This document shows, piece after piece, positions 1,661 to 53,183 of a DNA stretch of 64,000 bases. The stretch lies in assembly GCA_025462755.1 (NCBI GenBank), contig JAOAPF010000317.1, positions 1 through 64,000 of the forward strand, given 5' to 3'. This DNA is from Edaphobacter sp. (GTDB lineage: Bacteria > Acidobacteriota > Terriglobia > Terriglobales > Acidobacteriaceae). Made by a program: the position numbers and the translations under genes. The notes beneath the pieces were generated by a model that worked only from the letters and a program-made list of their open reading frames with translations, did not search any database and was not told where the DNA came from. Positions within the stretch are counted from its first letter, which is position 1. Each line of letters begins with the position of its first letter.

Positions 1661-3466
1661 ATGAAGCCTGTTAGACTCCACCTCGTGAAACCCCTCACTC
1701 TCAGCGCAATCCTCCTCCTGACCGCCGTCGCCCAGGCCCAGACCATGCCAGCCGACACGATCTACCTCCACGGCAACATCCTCACCGGTGCCCACCTCCG
1801 CCCCAACGACCCCTCACCAACCCCGGCCACGGTCACCGCGATCGCCATTACAAACGGAAAAATCATCGCCGCGGGAACCGACGGCGAGCTGCTCAAACTA
1901 AAGAGTCACAAGACAAAGGTCATCGACCTCCAGGGCGCCTTCGCGATGCCCGGCTTCAACGACGCCCACACCCACATCGGCGAAGCCGGCCGTCAAAAGC
2001 TGTCCGTCAACCTGGTCGGCGTCCACTCCCTCGCCGAGATGCAGCAGCGCATTCGCGCCTACGTCGCCACCGCGCAACCCGGCACCTGGATCCAGGGCGG
2101 AGGATGGGACCATACCCTCTGGCCAGACAGCAAACTCCCCTCCCGCACCGACCTCGACCTGGTCACCGCCGGCCACCCCGCCCTCTTGCGCCGCGTAGAC
2201 GGACACATGTCCGTAGCCAACTCCGCCGCCCTCGCCGCCGCCAACATCACCGCCGCCACCCCCGACCCCGCCGGCGCAAAGATCGACCGAGACGCATCCG
2301 GCAACCCCACCGGAATCCTCCGCGAAGCAGCCGCCTACGCCCTCGTCACGGTAAAAATTCCTCCGCCAAGCCTCGAACAACGCCGCCAGGCCCTCACCGT
2401 CGCCATCGCCGATATCCTCGCCAACGGCGTCACCAGCGTCCAGGACAACTCCGAGTGGGACGACTTCCTCGCCCTCGAAGAGCTCGAGCGTACCAACAAA
2501 CTCCCCCTCCGCATAGGCGAATGGATGGACTTCAACCAGCCCGTCGAGGTCCTCAAACAACGCCGCGCCAGCCACTCCAGCGACGATCTCCGCCTCCACC
2601 TGACCCAACTCAAGGGCTACATGGACGGCTCCCTCGGCTCCCGAACCGCCGCCATGCAAGAACCCTACTCCGACGACTCCGGAAACTCCGGACTCCCGCG
2701 CTACGAACAATCCAAGCTCAACCAGATGGCCGCCAAGCGCGCCGCCGCAGGCTTCCAACTGGGCTTCCACGCCATCGGAGACCGCGCCAATGCAATGGCC
2801 CTCAACGCCTTCGGAGTAGCCGATCAGGTCGCAACTCCCGCTCCCCAGCCGCTCGGAAACGGCCCTGACGCCCACGTGGTCACCAAGCCGGAGCAAGGCA
2901 CACCACCCCCCGCCGTCCTCCGCTTCCGGGTCGAACACGCCCAGGTTCTTCTCCCGAGCGACTTCGAGCGATTCGAAAAAGAAGGCGTCATCGCCTCCAT
3001 GCAACCCTCTCACCTGCTCACCGACATGAAATGGGCAACCGACCGCCTCGGCCCCGAACGCATCAAGTACGCCTACGCCTGGAAGTCCTTCCTCGACCAT
3101 CACGTCATTCTGGCCTTCGGCACCGACTACCCGGTCGAACTCATCAATCCCTTCCGCGGTCTCTACGCCGCCATCACCCGCCAAAACGAAGCCGGCACCC
3201 AGCCATTCCAGCCGCAGGAAAAGATCTCGCTCAACGAAGCGATCTACGCCTACACCCAGGCCTCCGCCTACGGCGAATTCCGTGAAAAAGTAAAAGGCCG
3301 CCTCGAACCCGGCTACCTCGGCGACCTCATCGTCCTCGACCGCGACATCACAGCCGCCTCACCTCAAGAACTCCTGCACACCAAAGTCCTCCGCACCGTC
3401 GTCAACGGCGAAACCGTCTACACAGCACCAGAGGCAACAGAACGCGCCACGAAGGCCCAAGACTAA
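1661..3466 (+). CDS. Secreted amidohydrolase (YtcJ-like, amidohydrolase_3)
   Basis: A 601-residue protein with a signal peptide (about residues 1-26, ending AQAQT), so probably periplasmic or exported. It has the amidohydrolase-superfamily layout: an N-terminal beta-sandwich strand set, then GFNDAHTHIGEAG with the HxH metal pair near residue 100, GFHAIGDRAN with a metal-ligand His near 365, and FGTDYPVE with the catalytic Asp near 490. The family hydrolyses C-N bonds such as N-formyl or cyclic amides; the substrate is unknown. The ATG at 1661 is the only start that gives an intact signal peptide. The next gene begins one base after its stop, suggesting co-transcription. Confidence 0.9.
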   Translation: MKPVRLHLVKPLTLSAILLLTAVAQAQTMPADTIYLHGNILTGAHLRPNDPSPTPATVTAIAITNGKIIAAGTDGELLKLKSHKTKVIDLQGAFAMPGFNDAHTHIGEAGRQKLSVNLVGVHSLAEMQQRIRAYVATAQPGTWIQGGGWDHTLWPDSKLPSRTDLDLVTAGHPALLRRVDGHMSVANSAALAAANITAATPDPAGAKIDRDASGNPTGILREAAAYALVTVKIPPPSLEQRRQALTVAIADILANGVTSVQDNSEWDDFLALEELERTNKLPLRIGEWMDFNQPVEVLKQRRASHSSDDLRLHLTQLKGYMDGSLGSRTAAMQEPYSDDSGNSGLPRYEQSKLNQMAAKRAAAGFQLGFHAIGDRANAMALNAFGVADQVATPAPQPLGNGPDAHVVTKPEQGTPPPAVLRFRVEHAQVLLPSDFERFEKEGVIASMQPSHLLTDMKWATDRLGPERIKYAYAWKSFLDHHVILAFGTDYPVELINPFRGLYAAITRQNEAGTQPFQPQEKISLNEAIYAYTQASAYGEFREKVKGRLEPGYLGDLIVLDRDITAASPQELLHTKVLRTVVNGETVYTAPEATERATKAQD

Positions 3467-41501: not shown

Positions 41502-41835
41502 CTAAGCCCGCCCCAGCAGCAGACAAGTCTCTTCATCTTCCTGAAGGAAGCCGCGGATCATGTCCTGCGCGGAAAGCAGGATTTCCACATCCCGTGGAAC
41601 AATTCCCGAGCCGTATCCAGATAATCTTCGGCGGGTCTTTCTCTAGAACACTACGCGCAGCAAAATCGGAGTCCTTGGACACAATCGCAAACCCATGCAA
41701 TTCGGCATAATCCCACACCTCGGAATCGTTAGCGCCACCCAGGTTCAGGTTATGAACATGATCCGACGCCGGATAGAGATCGGACAGCAAATCCATCACC
41801 CGCGGAGAAAGGTTCTCATCCAACAGCAGCTTCAC
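41502..41835 (-). pseudogene. DUF5615 PIN-like toxin, frameshifted
   Basis: The first 82 residues fit DUF5615 (PIN-like, Mut7-C related): MKLLLDENLSPRVMDLL, NLGGANDSEVWDYAE, FAIVSKDSDFAARSV, PKIIWIRLGNCST. After CST the frame reads GCGNPAFRAG to a stop at 41533. Shifting by one base at ACGGGATGTGG restores the family-like tail DVEILLSAQDMIRGFLQEDEE to a stop at 41502. A one-base insertion or two-base deletion near 41600 is the simplest cause. The gene starts four bases inside the end of the DUF433 gene, the usual toxin-antitoxin coupling. Confidence 0.75.
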
Positions 41836-42056
41836 GCCACCAGGGTCTCTGATTTCCGTTCGCGATCCGCCGCAAAAGCCAGACAGGCACGAATATCGTC
41901 TTCCGTCAGATACGGAAAGTCGTTAAGAATCTCCCCATGCGTCATCCCCGACGCGAGGTATCCCAGCACATCGCCAACGGTGACGCGTAGCCCCCGAATG
42001 CAAGGCTTGCCGCTGCGCTTGCCCGGTTCCATCGTGATGATCTGCGAATAATCCAT
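41832..42056 (-). CDS. DUF433-family antitoxin
   Basis: A protein of 74 residues from ATG 42056 (MDYSQIITMEPGKRSGKPCIRGLRVTVGDVLGYLASGMTHGEILNDFPYLTEDDIRACLAFAADRE). This is the full DUF433 helix-turn-helix fold, commonly paired with DUF5615 PIN-like proteins. It probably represses its own operon and neutralises the toxin. Since the toxin is frameshifted, the antitoxin may now be an orphan. The ORF-track start at 42098 adds a hydrophobic stretch not typical of the family. Confidence 0.85.
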   Translation of the reverse strand: MDYSQIITMEPGKRSGKPCIRGLRVTVGDVLGYLASGMTHGEILNDFPYLTEDDIRACLAFAADRERKSETLVA

Positions 42057-42193
42057 TGAATTAGAGTAAAGCGACGAGAAGGCACAGTAAAGAGACAATT
42101 GATTCGCCAGTGCACTGAAGGCTATGACACATCACGCAACCACCGTATCTCTAACTTCAGCAATCACTTACAATGATTTCCACCGCCAAAAGC

Positions 42194-42223
42194 TTGACTC
42201 ACCCAGATATAATTGACTTATAG
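42194..42223 (+). promoter_or_regulatory. Putative promoter of the leader RNA upstream of the CYYHH gene
   Basis: TTGACT (42194-42199) and an 18-base spacer to TTATAG (42218-42223) form a sigma-70-like promoter. A second TTGACT occurs at 42213 and a TATAAT at 42208, so exact elements are uncertain. Confidence 0.45.
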
Positions 42224-42233
42224 AGTAAAGATT

Positions 42234-42264
42234 GAGCCCGGCCACGCGCCGGGCTCTCGCTTTT
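42234..42264 (+). terminator. GC-rich hairpin with T-run in leader
   Basis: GAGCCCGGC-CACGC-GCCGGGCTC is a perfect nine-pair stem, followed by TCGCTTTT. It lies about 10 bases after the promoter and before the gene at 42383, so it could end a very short RNA or attenuate transcription. Confidence 0.5.
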
Positions 42265-42271
42265 AACCCAC

Positions 42272-42348
42272 AAAAGGCTTAGATCCAGACTTGGTATGCA
42301 CCAAAAACATACCGAAGTCCAGACCTAAGCCTTTTCAGCACTGGACTT
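42272..42348 (+). other. Long hairpin with competing alternative stem
   Basis: AAAAGGCTTAGATCCAGACTTGGTATG (42272-42298) pairs with 42308-42335 along about 28 positions with few mismatches and a nine-base loop. The right arm also contains AAGTCCAG (42315-42322), which is exactly complementary to CTGGACTT at 42341-42348. The two structures exclude each other. They lie just ahead of the ribosome site GGGGAGGGGG of the 42383 gene. Confidence 0.6.
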
Positions 42349-42382
42349 TACGCAAAAAAGTATCCCGGGGAGGGGGTTACTC

Positions 42383-42772
42383 ATGAACAAGACCATCGAA
42401 GTCATCAAGGACATCCGCACTCTCTGCACCCACATCTTCGAAGGAGGCCACCGATGCGCCTCGCCCGCCCTCCAGCGAGAAGCCTTCTGCTACTACCACC
42501 ACCCCACCCGCAAACGCCTCCCAACCCCCAGCCGGCGCCGCAGTCGCCGCCAATCCTTCGACCTCCTACTCCCCTCCGGCCAGTCAGACCTCCAGCACGC
42601 CGTCTACGAAGTAATTCGCCGTCTCGCCGCCAACCAGATCAGCACCCGCCACGCTGGCCTGATCCTCAACGCCATTCACAATGCCAGCCGGAACTCGCCA
42701 CAAGTCACAAATCCTTCACCGCACCAACCTGCGCCACGAAACAGTAAGATCAACACCCAGAGGCATAAATGA
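42383..42772 (+). CDS. Cys/His-rich small protein of unknown function
   Basis: A 129-residue basic protein. Residues 12-35 contain TLCTHIFEGGHRCASPALQREAFCYYHH, a C-x8-C-x9-C-x3-H pattern suggesting a single zinc site. The remainder is Arg/Ser/Pro-rich and probably disordered. I do not recognise a named family; similar short CxxxxxRCxxPAL-xxxFCYYH proteins seem common in acidobacteria (recollection, not checked). A very strong GGGGAGGGGG ribosome site and a structured leader precede it. The last four bases overlap the following hydrolase ATG, so they are co-translated. Confidence 0.7.
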   Translation: MNKTIEVIKDIRTLCTHIFEGGHRCASPALQREAFCYYHHPTRKRLPTPSRRRSRRQSFDLLLPSGQSDLQHAVYEVIRRLAANQISTRHAGLILNAIHNASRNSPQVTNPSPHQPAPRNSKINTQRHK

Positions 42773-43560
42773 TCATCATCAACGACGAACACGTAACCCT
42801 GGACACCCCCAGCGGCCCCATGCGAACCCACATCGTTCGCCCCGCCGCACCCGGCCGCTATCCCGGCATCCTCTTCTACTCAGAAATCTTTCAAATCACC
42901 GCGCCCATCCGCCGCACAGCCGCCATGCTAGCCGGCCACGGCTACATCGTCGCCATGCCCGAGATCTACCACGAGTCCGAACCCGCCGGCACCATCCTCG
43001 CCTACGATCAGGCCGGCTCCGACCGTGGCAACTTCCTAAAAACCGACAAGCCCGTCGCAGCTTATGACGCCGACGCGCGCGCGGTCCTCGACCACCTCGC
43101 TGCCCGCCCCGACTGCACCGGCCACCTCGGCGCCATGGGCATCTGCATTGGCGGCCACCTCGCCTTCCGCGCCGCCATGAACCCCGACGTCAAAGCCACC
43201 GCCTGCTTCTACGCCACCGACATTCACAAGCGCGGCCTCGGCAAAGGAATGCACGACGACTCCCTCGACCGCGCCGCCGAAATCAAAGGCGAACTCCTCA
43301 TGATCTGGGGGCGCCAGGACCCCCACATCCCCACTGAAGGCCGCATGGCCGTCCTCGCGCGTCTCAACGAAATCGGCACACGTCTCTCATGGCACGAGGT
43401 CAACGGAGCCCACGCCTTCATGCGCGACGAGGGCATCCGCTACGACCCCGAACTCGCCTACAGCCTCTACGGCGAAGTCTTCGATCTCTTCCACCGCAAA
43501 CTAGGCGAAGGCGATCTCGCCGCTCAATCCACTGCCGCTTCCACCGAAACCCGGCACTAA
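42769..43560 (+). CDS. Dienelactone hydrolase-family protein
   Basis: An alpha/beta hydrolase of 263 residues. The nucleophile elbow is GICIGGH (Cys as nucleophile, as in dienelactone hydrolase), the acid is Asp in GRQDPHIP and the catalytic His is in NGAHAFMRDEG. The family opens lactone or ester bonds, including in chlorocatechol degradation. A substrate cannot be assigned. A second member of the family is at 49.1 kb. Confidence 0.88.
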   Translation: MIIINDEHVTLDTPSGPMRTHIVRPAAPGRYPGILFYSEIFQITAPIRRTAAMLAGHGYIVAMPEIYHESEPAGTILAYDQAGSDRGNFLKTDKPVAAYDADARAVLDHLAARPDCTGHLGAMGICIGGHLAFRAAMNPDVKATACFYATDIHKRGLGKGMHDDSLDRAAEIKGELLMIWGRQDPHIPTEGRMAVLARLNEIGTRLSWHEVNGAHAFMRDEGIRYDPELAYSLYGEVFDLFHRKLGEGDLAAQSTAASTETRH

Positions 43561-51870: not shown

Positions 51871-52081
51871 AGAGATCTGCTGTTGCTTTCGGATTTAGTG
51901 TAGCTTCAGCCGAAGCCAAGCGGGAACGGATAAGCTATTCATTCTCATACGTTTGCTGTTCCAGTATTTTTATTTTGCAATTTTCTGCCCAAAAACCACA
52001 TGTCAAGCCCAAGAACCGCTTAAGCCTTTCCCTTTCATGTAGATCCGTGTGGCATTTTAGTTATGGCCAATCCGCTATACT
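51871..52081 (+). repeat. Long dispersed intergenic repeat, copy 2
   Basis: Shares ordered landmarks with 1222-1495, including GAGATCTGCTGTT, GCCGAAGCCAAGCGGGAAC, GCCCAAAAACCACATGTCAAGCCC (51987-52010) and GGCCAATCCGC followed by a -10-like TATACT at 52076-52081. The 490-base gap 51794-52283 holds only this and the following hairpin module. Confidence 0.7.
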
Positions 52082-52115
52082 AGATATAGATCGAAACAAG
52101 CAAGAGCTAGCGGAA

Positions 52116-52190
52116 AAGTAAGCCCCGGACACGTTCGGGGCTAACTTATTGATATAAAGGATTTTGGACGCAACACCTTTATTATGAATA
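52116..52190 (+). other. Promoter-hairpin module, copy 2
   Basis: After TATACT comes the hairpin AAGT-A-AGCCCCG-N8-CGGGGCT-A-ACTT and then CCTTTATTATGAATA (52176-52190). The same order, AAACAAGC, AGCCCCG hairpin, CCTTTATTATGAATA, occurs inverted at 60835-60946. ATAAAGG and CCTTTAT around 52155-52182 can form a second stem. Confidence 0.6.
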
Positions 52191-52273
52191 TTTTGCATAC
52201 GGAGACACCGCGCAAGCTGCTGAATACAAGGAGTTTGCGCGCGGGCAAGGGGGGTACCCCCCAGAGTCTGTAA
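52184..52273 (+). CDS. Possible 29-residue small ORF
   Basis: ATG inside the conserved TTATTATGAATA of the hairpin module opens MNILHTETPRKLLNTRSL to a TAA. It includes the 14-base palindrome GGGGGGTACCCCCC (52249-52262). The other copy of the module opens only a 14-codon frame, so conservation of a peptide is not supported. No clear ribosome site. Confidence 0.15.
   Translation: MNILHTETPRKLLNTRSLRAGKGGTPQSL
52207..52262. terminator. Stem-loops downstream of flgL
   Basis: CGCGCAA (near 52210) pairs with TTGCGCG (near 52235), and GGGGGGTACCCCCC forms a perfect palindrome at 52249-52262. They lie 20-75 bases after the flgL stop (minus strand). No T-run is present. Confidence 0.35.
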
Positions 52274-52283
52274 GAGGAAGGAT

Positions 52284-53183
52284 CTACTTCATAAGGCTAA
52301 AAAGGTTGGAGCTCCCTAGTGCATTAATGACACTGAGAAGAGCCTGATGCTGGGTCTCAGCCGTGGACAGTTGGGTCGCTACCGCAGCGGGGTCCGCCGA
52401 AACCAGATTGCTCTGTGCCACCTTCAATTGGCTCTCCTCCGTCTGGGTATACGTACTTGTCGCCTGCAGCCGGCTCAAAGCGCTATCGAGCGTGCTCCGC
52501 TGGGACGACAGTTGCCCCAGCGATGTGGTCAACGCGTTGGTATCTGCCGTAAGCGCAGCAGTCGTCGCGCCAGCGGAAAAATCAGAGATCAACTGGTTCA
52601 ATGCCCCCAACACACCCGAGCCTGCCGCACCAAAGACAGCGGACCCGGGAAGATTGACCTGGATCTGCTGCCCGCTCGGGGTCTGGACGTACTGGACGTT
52701 GGAGTCGCCGTTATAAGTCGCCGTAGCAGGATTAGTGGAGGTGTCCAGCGTGAACGGAGGTGCCGATCCCTGGCTTCCGCCGAACAGGTACTGCCCCTGA
52801 TAGCTCGTGTTGGCGAGCGAGAGCACCTGGTCGCGAATCCCGCTCAGCGCTTGAGCGACACTGGCAAGATTGCTGGCATTGAGCGTTCCATTATTTCCGC
52901 CAACAGCAGTCGACAACGCAGAAGTAATCTGGGTCACAACCTCGCCCAGCGTCGAATCGGTGACCTGCATCCGAGAAGCTTGGTTGGAGGCAGTCTGAAC
53001 AAAAGTATCGTCCTTCGCAATCGAGCTGCCCAGCAGAGTGCTCTGCGCCACTGCAACCGGACCGTCCGAGAGCGAAGCGACGCGCAATCCGCTGGACAAT
53101 TCGGACGTGAGCGTAATTTCCTGTTGGGTCGACTGATTGAGCGCCGCCGCCAGGTTGCTAAGGTAATTCGGATCGACTCGCAT
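52284..53183 (-). CDS. flgL: Hook-filament junction protein FlgL
   Basis: A 299-residue structural protein joining hook and filament. The N-terminal flagellin-like helix is MRVDPNYLSNLAAALNQSTQQEITLTSELSSGLRVASLSDGPVAVAQSTLL, and the C-terminal helix TEESQLKVAQSNLVSADPAAVATQLSTAETQHQALLSVINAL. The middle domain is variable. Length is normal. It follows flgK and ends the second flagellar array. Confidence 0.94.
   Translation of the reverse strand: MRVDPNYLSNLAAALNQSTQQEITLTSELSSGLRVASLSDGPVAVAQSTLLGSSIAKDDTFVQTASNQASRMQVTDSTLGEVVTQITSALSTAVGGNNGTLNASNLASVAQALSGIRDQVLSLANTSYQGQYLFGGSQGSAPPFTLDTSTNPATATYNGDSNVQYVQTPSGQQIQVNLPGSAVFGAAGSGVLGALNQLISDFSAGATTAALTADTNALTTSLGQLSSQRSTLDSALSRLQATSTYTQTEESQLKVAQSNLVSADPAAVATQLSTAETQHQALLSVINALGSSNLFSLMK

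Follow-up and report, generated by a model that had tools for sequence, protein, structure and literature searches.

Several described systems resemble parts of the locus examined here. REP/REPIN elements and their RAYT partners (PMC3116915, PMC2817692) are likewise high-copy intergenic hairpin elements with a partner gene adjoining copies; in the REP survey, Granulicella aggregans appears in the count table only. BOX elements of pneumococcus (PMC3049150) and Correia-type MITEs (PMC10969869) are interspersed, intergenic and found near genes, and the Acido-1 and Acido-Lenti-1 RNAs (RF01686, RF01687; PMC2864571) are candidate structured RNAs of Acidobacteria. Promoter-proximal attenuators built on an intrinsic terminator share a further layout with the locus, in which a promoter is followed after about 20 nt by a GC hairpin with a T-rich tail and then by a gene. 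Correia elements, too, can carry promoters.

The window, a 64,000-nt stretch of an Edaphobacter sp. contig (JAOAPF010000317.1), contains a leader upstream of a small Cys/His protein gene. A preliminary description had reported a promoter, a nine-pair GC hairpin with T-run, a longer hairpin and an alternative pairing in this leader, and the two hairpins and the alternative pairing are all present where it had placed them. The parts of the leader are listed below, where R1 denotes a search model built from the -10 box and the first hairpin (P1).

42192-42382, + strand: element copy, from promoter to G-run (R1 66.3 bits at 42192-42271)
42208-42213, + strand: -10 box TATAAT, putative promoter of the element (in 71 aligned leaders, the TAnnnT columns vary little or not at all)
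42234-42256, + strand: P1, terminator-shaped hairpin of 9 bp with a 5-nt loop (covariation at 7/7 scored pairs)
42272-42335, + strand: P2, long imperfect hairpin (outer arms 42272-42285/42322-42335, inner GGTATG/CATACC)
42315-42322, + strand: AAGTCCAG, 5' partner in the alternative pairing
42341-42348, + strand: CTGGACTT, 3' partner in the alternative pairing (its GACTTTACGC end is part of a conserved GAAGACTTTGCRC unit)
42364-42376, + strand: terminal G-run CCCGGGGAGGGGG, at the Shine-Dalgarno position before the ATG at 42383
42383-42772, + strand: Cys/His gene, 129 aa, DUF5763-like (below cut-off)

The arms of P1 are GAGCCCGGC and GCCGGGCTC (42234-42242/42248-42256), followed by the tail TCGCTTTTAA, with an A-rich stretch on the 5' side and a T-rich tail (42257-42266) on the 3' side. 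P1 has the GC-rich stem and T-run of an intrinsic terminator, with a T-run that is moderate and interrupted (TCGCTTTT) and with sequence before the stem that is about equally A-rich, so that P1 could serve the opposite strand. It is the sole sense-strand terminator-like site in 1.2 kb, a span in which shuffled sequences yield 1.4 +/- 1.2 such sites by chance. The 21-nt arms of P2 (42272-42292/42315-42335) are 86% complementary, and AAGTCCAG and CTGGACTT share an exact 8-nt complementarity. The leader as a whole folds at -67 kcal/mol, compared to -47 +/- 4.3 kcal/mol for shuffled sequences (z -4.69; 0/200 shuffles as stable). The promoter stands in part: the TATAAT box lies upstream, TTGACT at 42194 is separated from it by no more than 8 nt and is therefore not a standard -35, and a sigma-70 scan returned no promoter match. 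A leader peptide was considered and rejected, since the short ATG ORF at about 42297 lacks a Shine-Dalgarno sequence and its frame is lost in orthologue L115. Immediately upstream of the leader lies a divergent pair of DUF5615/PIN_10-like and DUF433 genes (41533-42098, - strand), probably a toxin-antitoxin-type module. Downstream, a dienelactone hydrolase family ORF (42769-43560, + strand) shares its first 4 nt (ATGA) with the 3' end of the Cys/His ORF, and a neighbour of the same family likewise follows the Cys/His gene in orthologue L011.

Approximately 165 regions upstream of genes of the Cys/His family were read for the order of their parts, and a recurrent arrangement emerged: TAnnnT, some 20 A/G-rich nucleotides, P1, a T-rich tail, a variable middle, a unit of either GAAGACTTTG or AATATTTT, a G-run and the start codon, with the G-run just 5' of the start codon in nearly all of 53 aligned leaders. 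The P1 region was also found again before one paralogue in its own genome by plain DNA search. P1 stem sequences are highly diverse and keep their pairing, as in GCCCGGC/GCCGGGC, AGAGGCGCGGGG/CTCCGCGCCTCT, GGCCAGACG/CGTCTGGCC and AGAGCGCAGCC/GGCTGCGCTCT. Across 71 leaders, 91.3% of P1 cells are paired (82.0 +/- 0.9 in shuffles), and changes on both sides of a pair occur in 54 cells compared to 15.5 in shuffles, affecting 7/7 scored pairs at a level that 0/500 shuffles reach. G:U outnumbers A:C by 31:5 in these family leaders, part of the G:U being due to the T-rich base of the stem; this excess favours the leader-sense strand as the one forming a structured RNA. The leader is thus conserved before orthologues and many paralogues, and the covariation analysis that the preliminary description had called for gives a strong signal for P1, so that the outcome it had named as speaking against its proposal, a lack of conservation or of covariation, is not what was found.

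The second half of that proposal fared less well. It held that the leader is a gene-specific attenuator or riboswitch-like element in which the gene product or a metal chooses between P2 and the AAGTCCAG/CTGGACTT pairing. A structured leader conserved before family genes agrees with it, as do a P2 that is strong in 14/45 leaders (re-paired controls: 6.7%) and built from stems of several kinds, and the retention of an AAGTC/GACTT core in 30/45 leaders with compensatory AAGTA/TACTT in two sequences. That core, however, is for the most part either nearly invariant or broken, with a C-U mismatch in 8 sequences, and its covariation is weak: 203/225 cells are paired compared to 198.4 +/- 1.8 in shuffles, a value reached by 39/2000 of them. 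The nearest orthologues have CTAGACTT or CTAGATTT in place of CTGGACTT. Many members lack P2, and of the closest relatives L115 has a perfect and L011 a decayed version. The idea that P2 is a universal helix was rejected, as it occurs in part of the family leaders and is erratic in stand-alone copies; an H-type pseudoknot of AAGUC with GACUU was rejected for its weak covariation. P1 has no conserved competing partner across the leaders, and in L023 and L131 the start region follows directly after it. Judging from the aligned leaders, P1 is under clear constraint and P2 in some lineages only, and a two-state, mutually exclusive pairing is not supported as a conserved property of these leaders. 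What survives of the attenuator layout is a covarying P1 before one set of genes; a conserved terminator/antiterminator pair was not found, and the arrangement is not restricted to leaders. Taken as a whole, the earlier interpretation is partly supported, and a gene-specific attenuator working by such a switch we consider improbable.

A repeat of approximately 250-300 bp is present in dozens to hundreds of copies in acidobacterial genomes, and the leader is one of these. R1 returned 945 matches at E<=1e-3 in 62 congeneric genomes, compared to 148 Cys/His genes, and 62-125 matches per genome at E<=10 in five genomes, with zero copies in several complete congeners. In the wider family, R1 copies occur in 45/150 genomes and 29/79 genera, the genus used for training being the best covered. 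The parts follow one another as a TGTCAAGCCC box, the -10 box, P1, A/T-rich units (either AATATTTT or GAAGACTTTG) and the terminal G-run. The left boundary is sharp: conservation sets in with TGTCAAGCCC, some 92 nt upstream of the -10 box, and the G-run forms the right end. The copies contain no coding sequence and are many and dispersed, as MITEs are, and inspection of the R1 matches revealed complete copies without any Cys/His gene. Two further copies lie in the window itself.

1412-1650, + strand: second copy, with TGTCAAG at 1412, -10 box TACAAT at 1487 and GAAGACTTTGCGC at about 1611 (R1 27.1 bits, E 0.0015)
52000-52262, + strand: third copy, with TGTCAAG at 52001, -10 box TATACT at 52076 and P1 at 52121-52142 (R1 23.2 bits, E 0.0084)

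The former has a degenerate P1 and G-run and precedes an amidohydrolase ORF (1661-3466). The latter carries AATATTTTGC, then GGGGGGTACCCCCC at 52249-52262, and is convergent with a FlgL-like ORF (52284-53183, - strand). Elsewhere, in L229, a copy and its Cys/His gene lie slightly beyond the 5S rRNA gene of an rRNA operon. A second palindromic repeat (GGGTGCCCCATCCT...AGGGTGGG) is frequent before family genes in genomes G119 and G096 (L056, L059, L061, L065, L066, L075).

We placed 40 copies in two single-contig genomes (G158 and G166) using simple longest-ORF gene calls. Most lie beside unrelated genes, and the right-hand call is convergent in 25/40 and codirectional in 15/40, two of the latter being family genes. 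Contamination of the window's own draft genome was rejected as a cause because the same copies sit in these single-contig genomes. Since dozens of copies lie elsewhere than before Cys/His genes, and many face a convergent gene, we regard the leader as a copy of a dispersed element rather than as a gene-specific attenuator. The 16/40 placed copies that lie between convergent gene calls could be taken to mean that P1 is a bidirectional terminator of the ordinary intergenic kind and that the rest is shared background, with no element at all. The A-richness before P1 and the T-richness after it would fit such a role; in a different genus, a similar hairpin also lies at the end of a gene (L024). 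This reading is already contradicted, and we hold it to be very improbable: at unrelated loci, P1 is conserved as part of about 250-300 bp that also keep the -10 region, TGTCAAG box, units and G-run, several complete congeners lack any copy, and the gene upstream of the leader in the window is divergent. Furthermore, 10/10 R1 matches in protein-poor genomes resemble element copies, 9/10 with the TGTCAAG box, which indicates that R1 is specific and does not collect plain terminators.

The same contexts bear on whether the copies form a family of stand-alone small RNAs, either about 50 nt in length with P1 as their end or longer, or of RNAs antisense to convergent neighbours. Besides the copies' own -10 box and leader-sense G:U bias, the 25/40 copies facing the 3' end of a convergent gene speak for this, as does the junction in G158, where the stop codon follows directly after the last G in 8/18 convergent cases and lies within 0-3 nt in 12/18. 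The sequence after P1 is nevertheless highly variable, and the copies in G166 lie 12-40 nt away from the stop codons of their neighbours, so that we consider RNAs of this kind rather unlikely.

Copies vary between close species. Of 24 genomes inspected, only G158 and G169 carry the element behind dnaB; the copy in G169 is of another subtype in the same orientation as that of G158 (L272, L289), and in one of the 22 genomes without an element at this site the DnaB segment is 99% identical. Similarly, an element lies behind an RND outer-membrane gene in G158 and is absent in four relatives, all of which conserve the gene over its full 3' part; an ordinary hairpin takes its place in one of them. 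Presence and absence at orthologous sites, as expected of MITEs, is hence seen at the level of species, with diverged flanking intergenic DNA. These flanks are too diverged to provide a clean empty site, and the copies probably arose by insertion. The variable presence, the high copy number, the lack of ORFs and the well-defined left end would all suit a selfish MITE-like element moved by an unrelated transposase, with the Cys/His gene merely profiting from its promoter and G-run. Neither terminal inverted repeats nor target duplications could be clearly made out at the copies, however, and no parent element was identified; by eye, the ends TGTCAAGCCCCC and GGGGGAGGGGG have in common only a C/G run. 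The strong covariation of P1 between diverged copies, the near-constant link to one gene family and the co-distribution with it argue against a purely selfish element, which we judge unlikely.

That link is most evident within the genus, where P1 lies upstream of 72/76 family genes with enough upstream sequence, 62 by script, to which inspection by eye adds about 10 (8 cases and the identical pair L172/L173). Outside the genus, an automatic scan associates P1 with 14/91 family genes. The protein family is present in 53/62 congeneric genomes, often in multiple copies, with several paralogues in the genome of the window, and genomes with more element copies also tend to have more copies of the protein (Spearman 0.71, not adjusted for phylogeny). 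The nine genomes without a match to the window protein (P0001) have 0, 0, 0, 0, 0, 0, 2, 4 and 4 element copies (median 0), compared to a median of 14. By profile search, the family is truly missing from seven of these nine; of the other two, one retains a remnant containing a stop and the second a broken copy. Copies are present without an intact protein in G173, G180 and G201, and hence persist in its absence. In L186, L190 and L014/L182, the family genes are degenerate or truncated with element sequence still in front. This co-distribution is indicative of a mobile or regulatory system of unknown kind, of which the Cys/His family is likely to be the partner protein.

The protein itself bears out the earlier suggestion that the ORF encodes a putative zinc-binding product: it has the pattern CxH..C..CxxH, and across the family C15, C25, C36 and H39 are invariant and H17 nearly so, accompanied by a two-helix part. 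P0001 reaches no Pfam or NCBIfam cut-off (DUF5763 12.1 bits, cut-off 26.3), and some family members weakly resemble DUF5763 (PF19067) and zf-primase (PF09329), with best E values of 9e-5 and 5e-4, respectively. From these weak similarities, the protein may be supposed to bind nucleic acids. It has no catalytic motif and no HUH/tyrosine transposase domain by Pfam or PHROGs, and searches against PHROGs, PADLOC, PDB, plasmids and phages gave zero matches; a phage or plasmid origin was accordingly rejected. The predicted structure is poor (pLDDT 70, pTM 0.43), with two confident helices only, and Foldseek found nothing below E 3 with it.

Taken together, these data make it fairly probable, in our estimation, that the leader is a copy of a high-copy interspersed element of the Acidobacteriaceae with the Cys/His family as its likely partner. 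To the observed structure, copy number, contexts, presence/absence pattern and co-distribution we add a mechanism that we infer. RNA polymerase would start about 20 nt before P1, which would form once some 45 nt had been made and would lower or condition read-through as a promoter-proximal attenuation; read-through transcripts would be translated via the G-run as a Shine-Dalgarno sequence. The zinc-finger-like product would bind the element, as DNA or RNA, thereby controlling its own gene, and would act on other copies as a regulator or mobility factor. A conserved ligand-type switch would not be needed. A more specific version, which we put forward tentatively as doubtful, is that the small zinc-finger protein recognises the promoter-hairpin-G-run copies, spreads or silences them and sets them right at the stop codons of unrelated genes, as new 3' ends or antisense promoters, while its own gene stands under one copy.

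If the element reading is true, this leader is a way into a family that has no Rfam entry, counts about 1000 detected copies in a single genus of soil bacteria and brings with it a candidate partner protein as well as a covarying hairpin and a stop-codon junction that is precise and unexplained. It would become testable how such repeats spread, whether the copies reset transcription ends and antisense promoters genome-wide, and what role a very common multi-copy zinc-finger family of Acidobacteria plays.

In relation to known systems, neither the element in the window nor 20 copy-bearing loci gave an Rfam match above the cut-off of the family concerned, and matches of the leader at relaxed thresholds were rejected as chance hits of microRNA type only. 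The literature covered, on acidobacterial repeats, DUF5763 and Correia/BOX analogues and with most subscription journals outside its scope, does not describe the element. The Cys/His family has a short zinc-finger-like Cys/His pattern in common with DUF5763 and zf-primase and differs from both in its extra two-helix part. Unlike promoter-proximal attenuators, P1 lacks a conserved antiterminator, and the element also occurs where no sense gene follows. BOX and Correia elements differ from it in sequence, host phylum, composition and partner gene, and terminal inverted repeats were not clearly seen here. The 20-40 nt palindrome, GTAG tag and RAYT HUH/tyrosine partner by which REP/RAYT systems are recognised are not those of this element, which in contrast to REP/REPIN spans about 250-300 bp, combines a single GC hairpin with a promoter and a G-run, and has a Cys/His protein for its likely partner. 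The best overall reading is that it represents a new family of interspersed elements.
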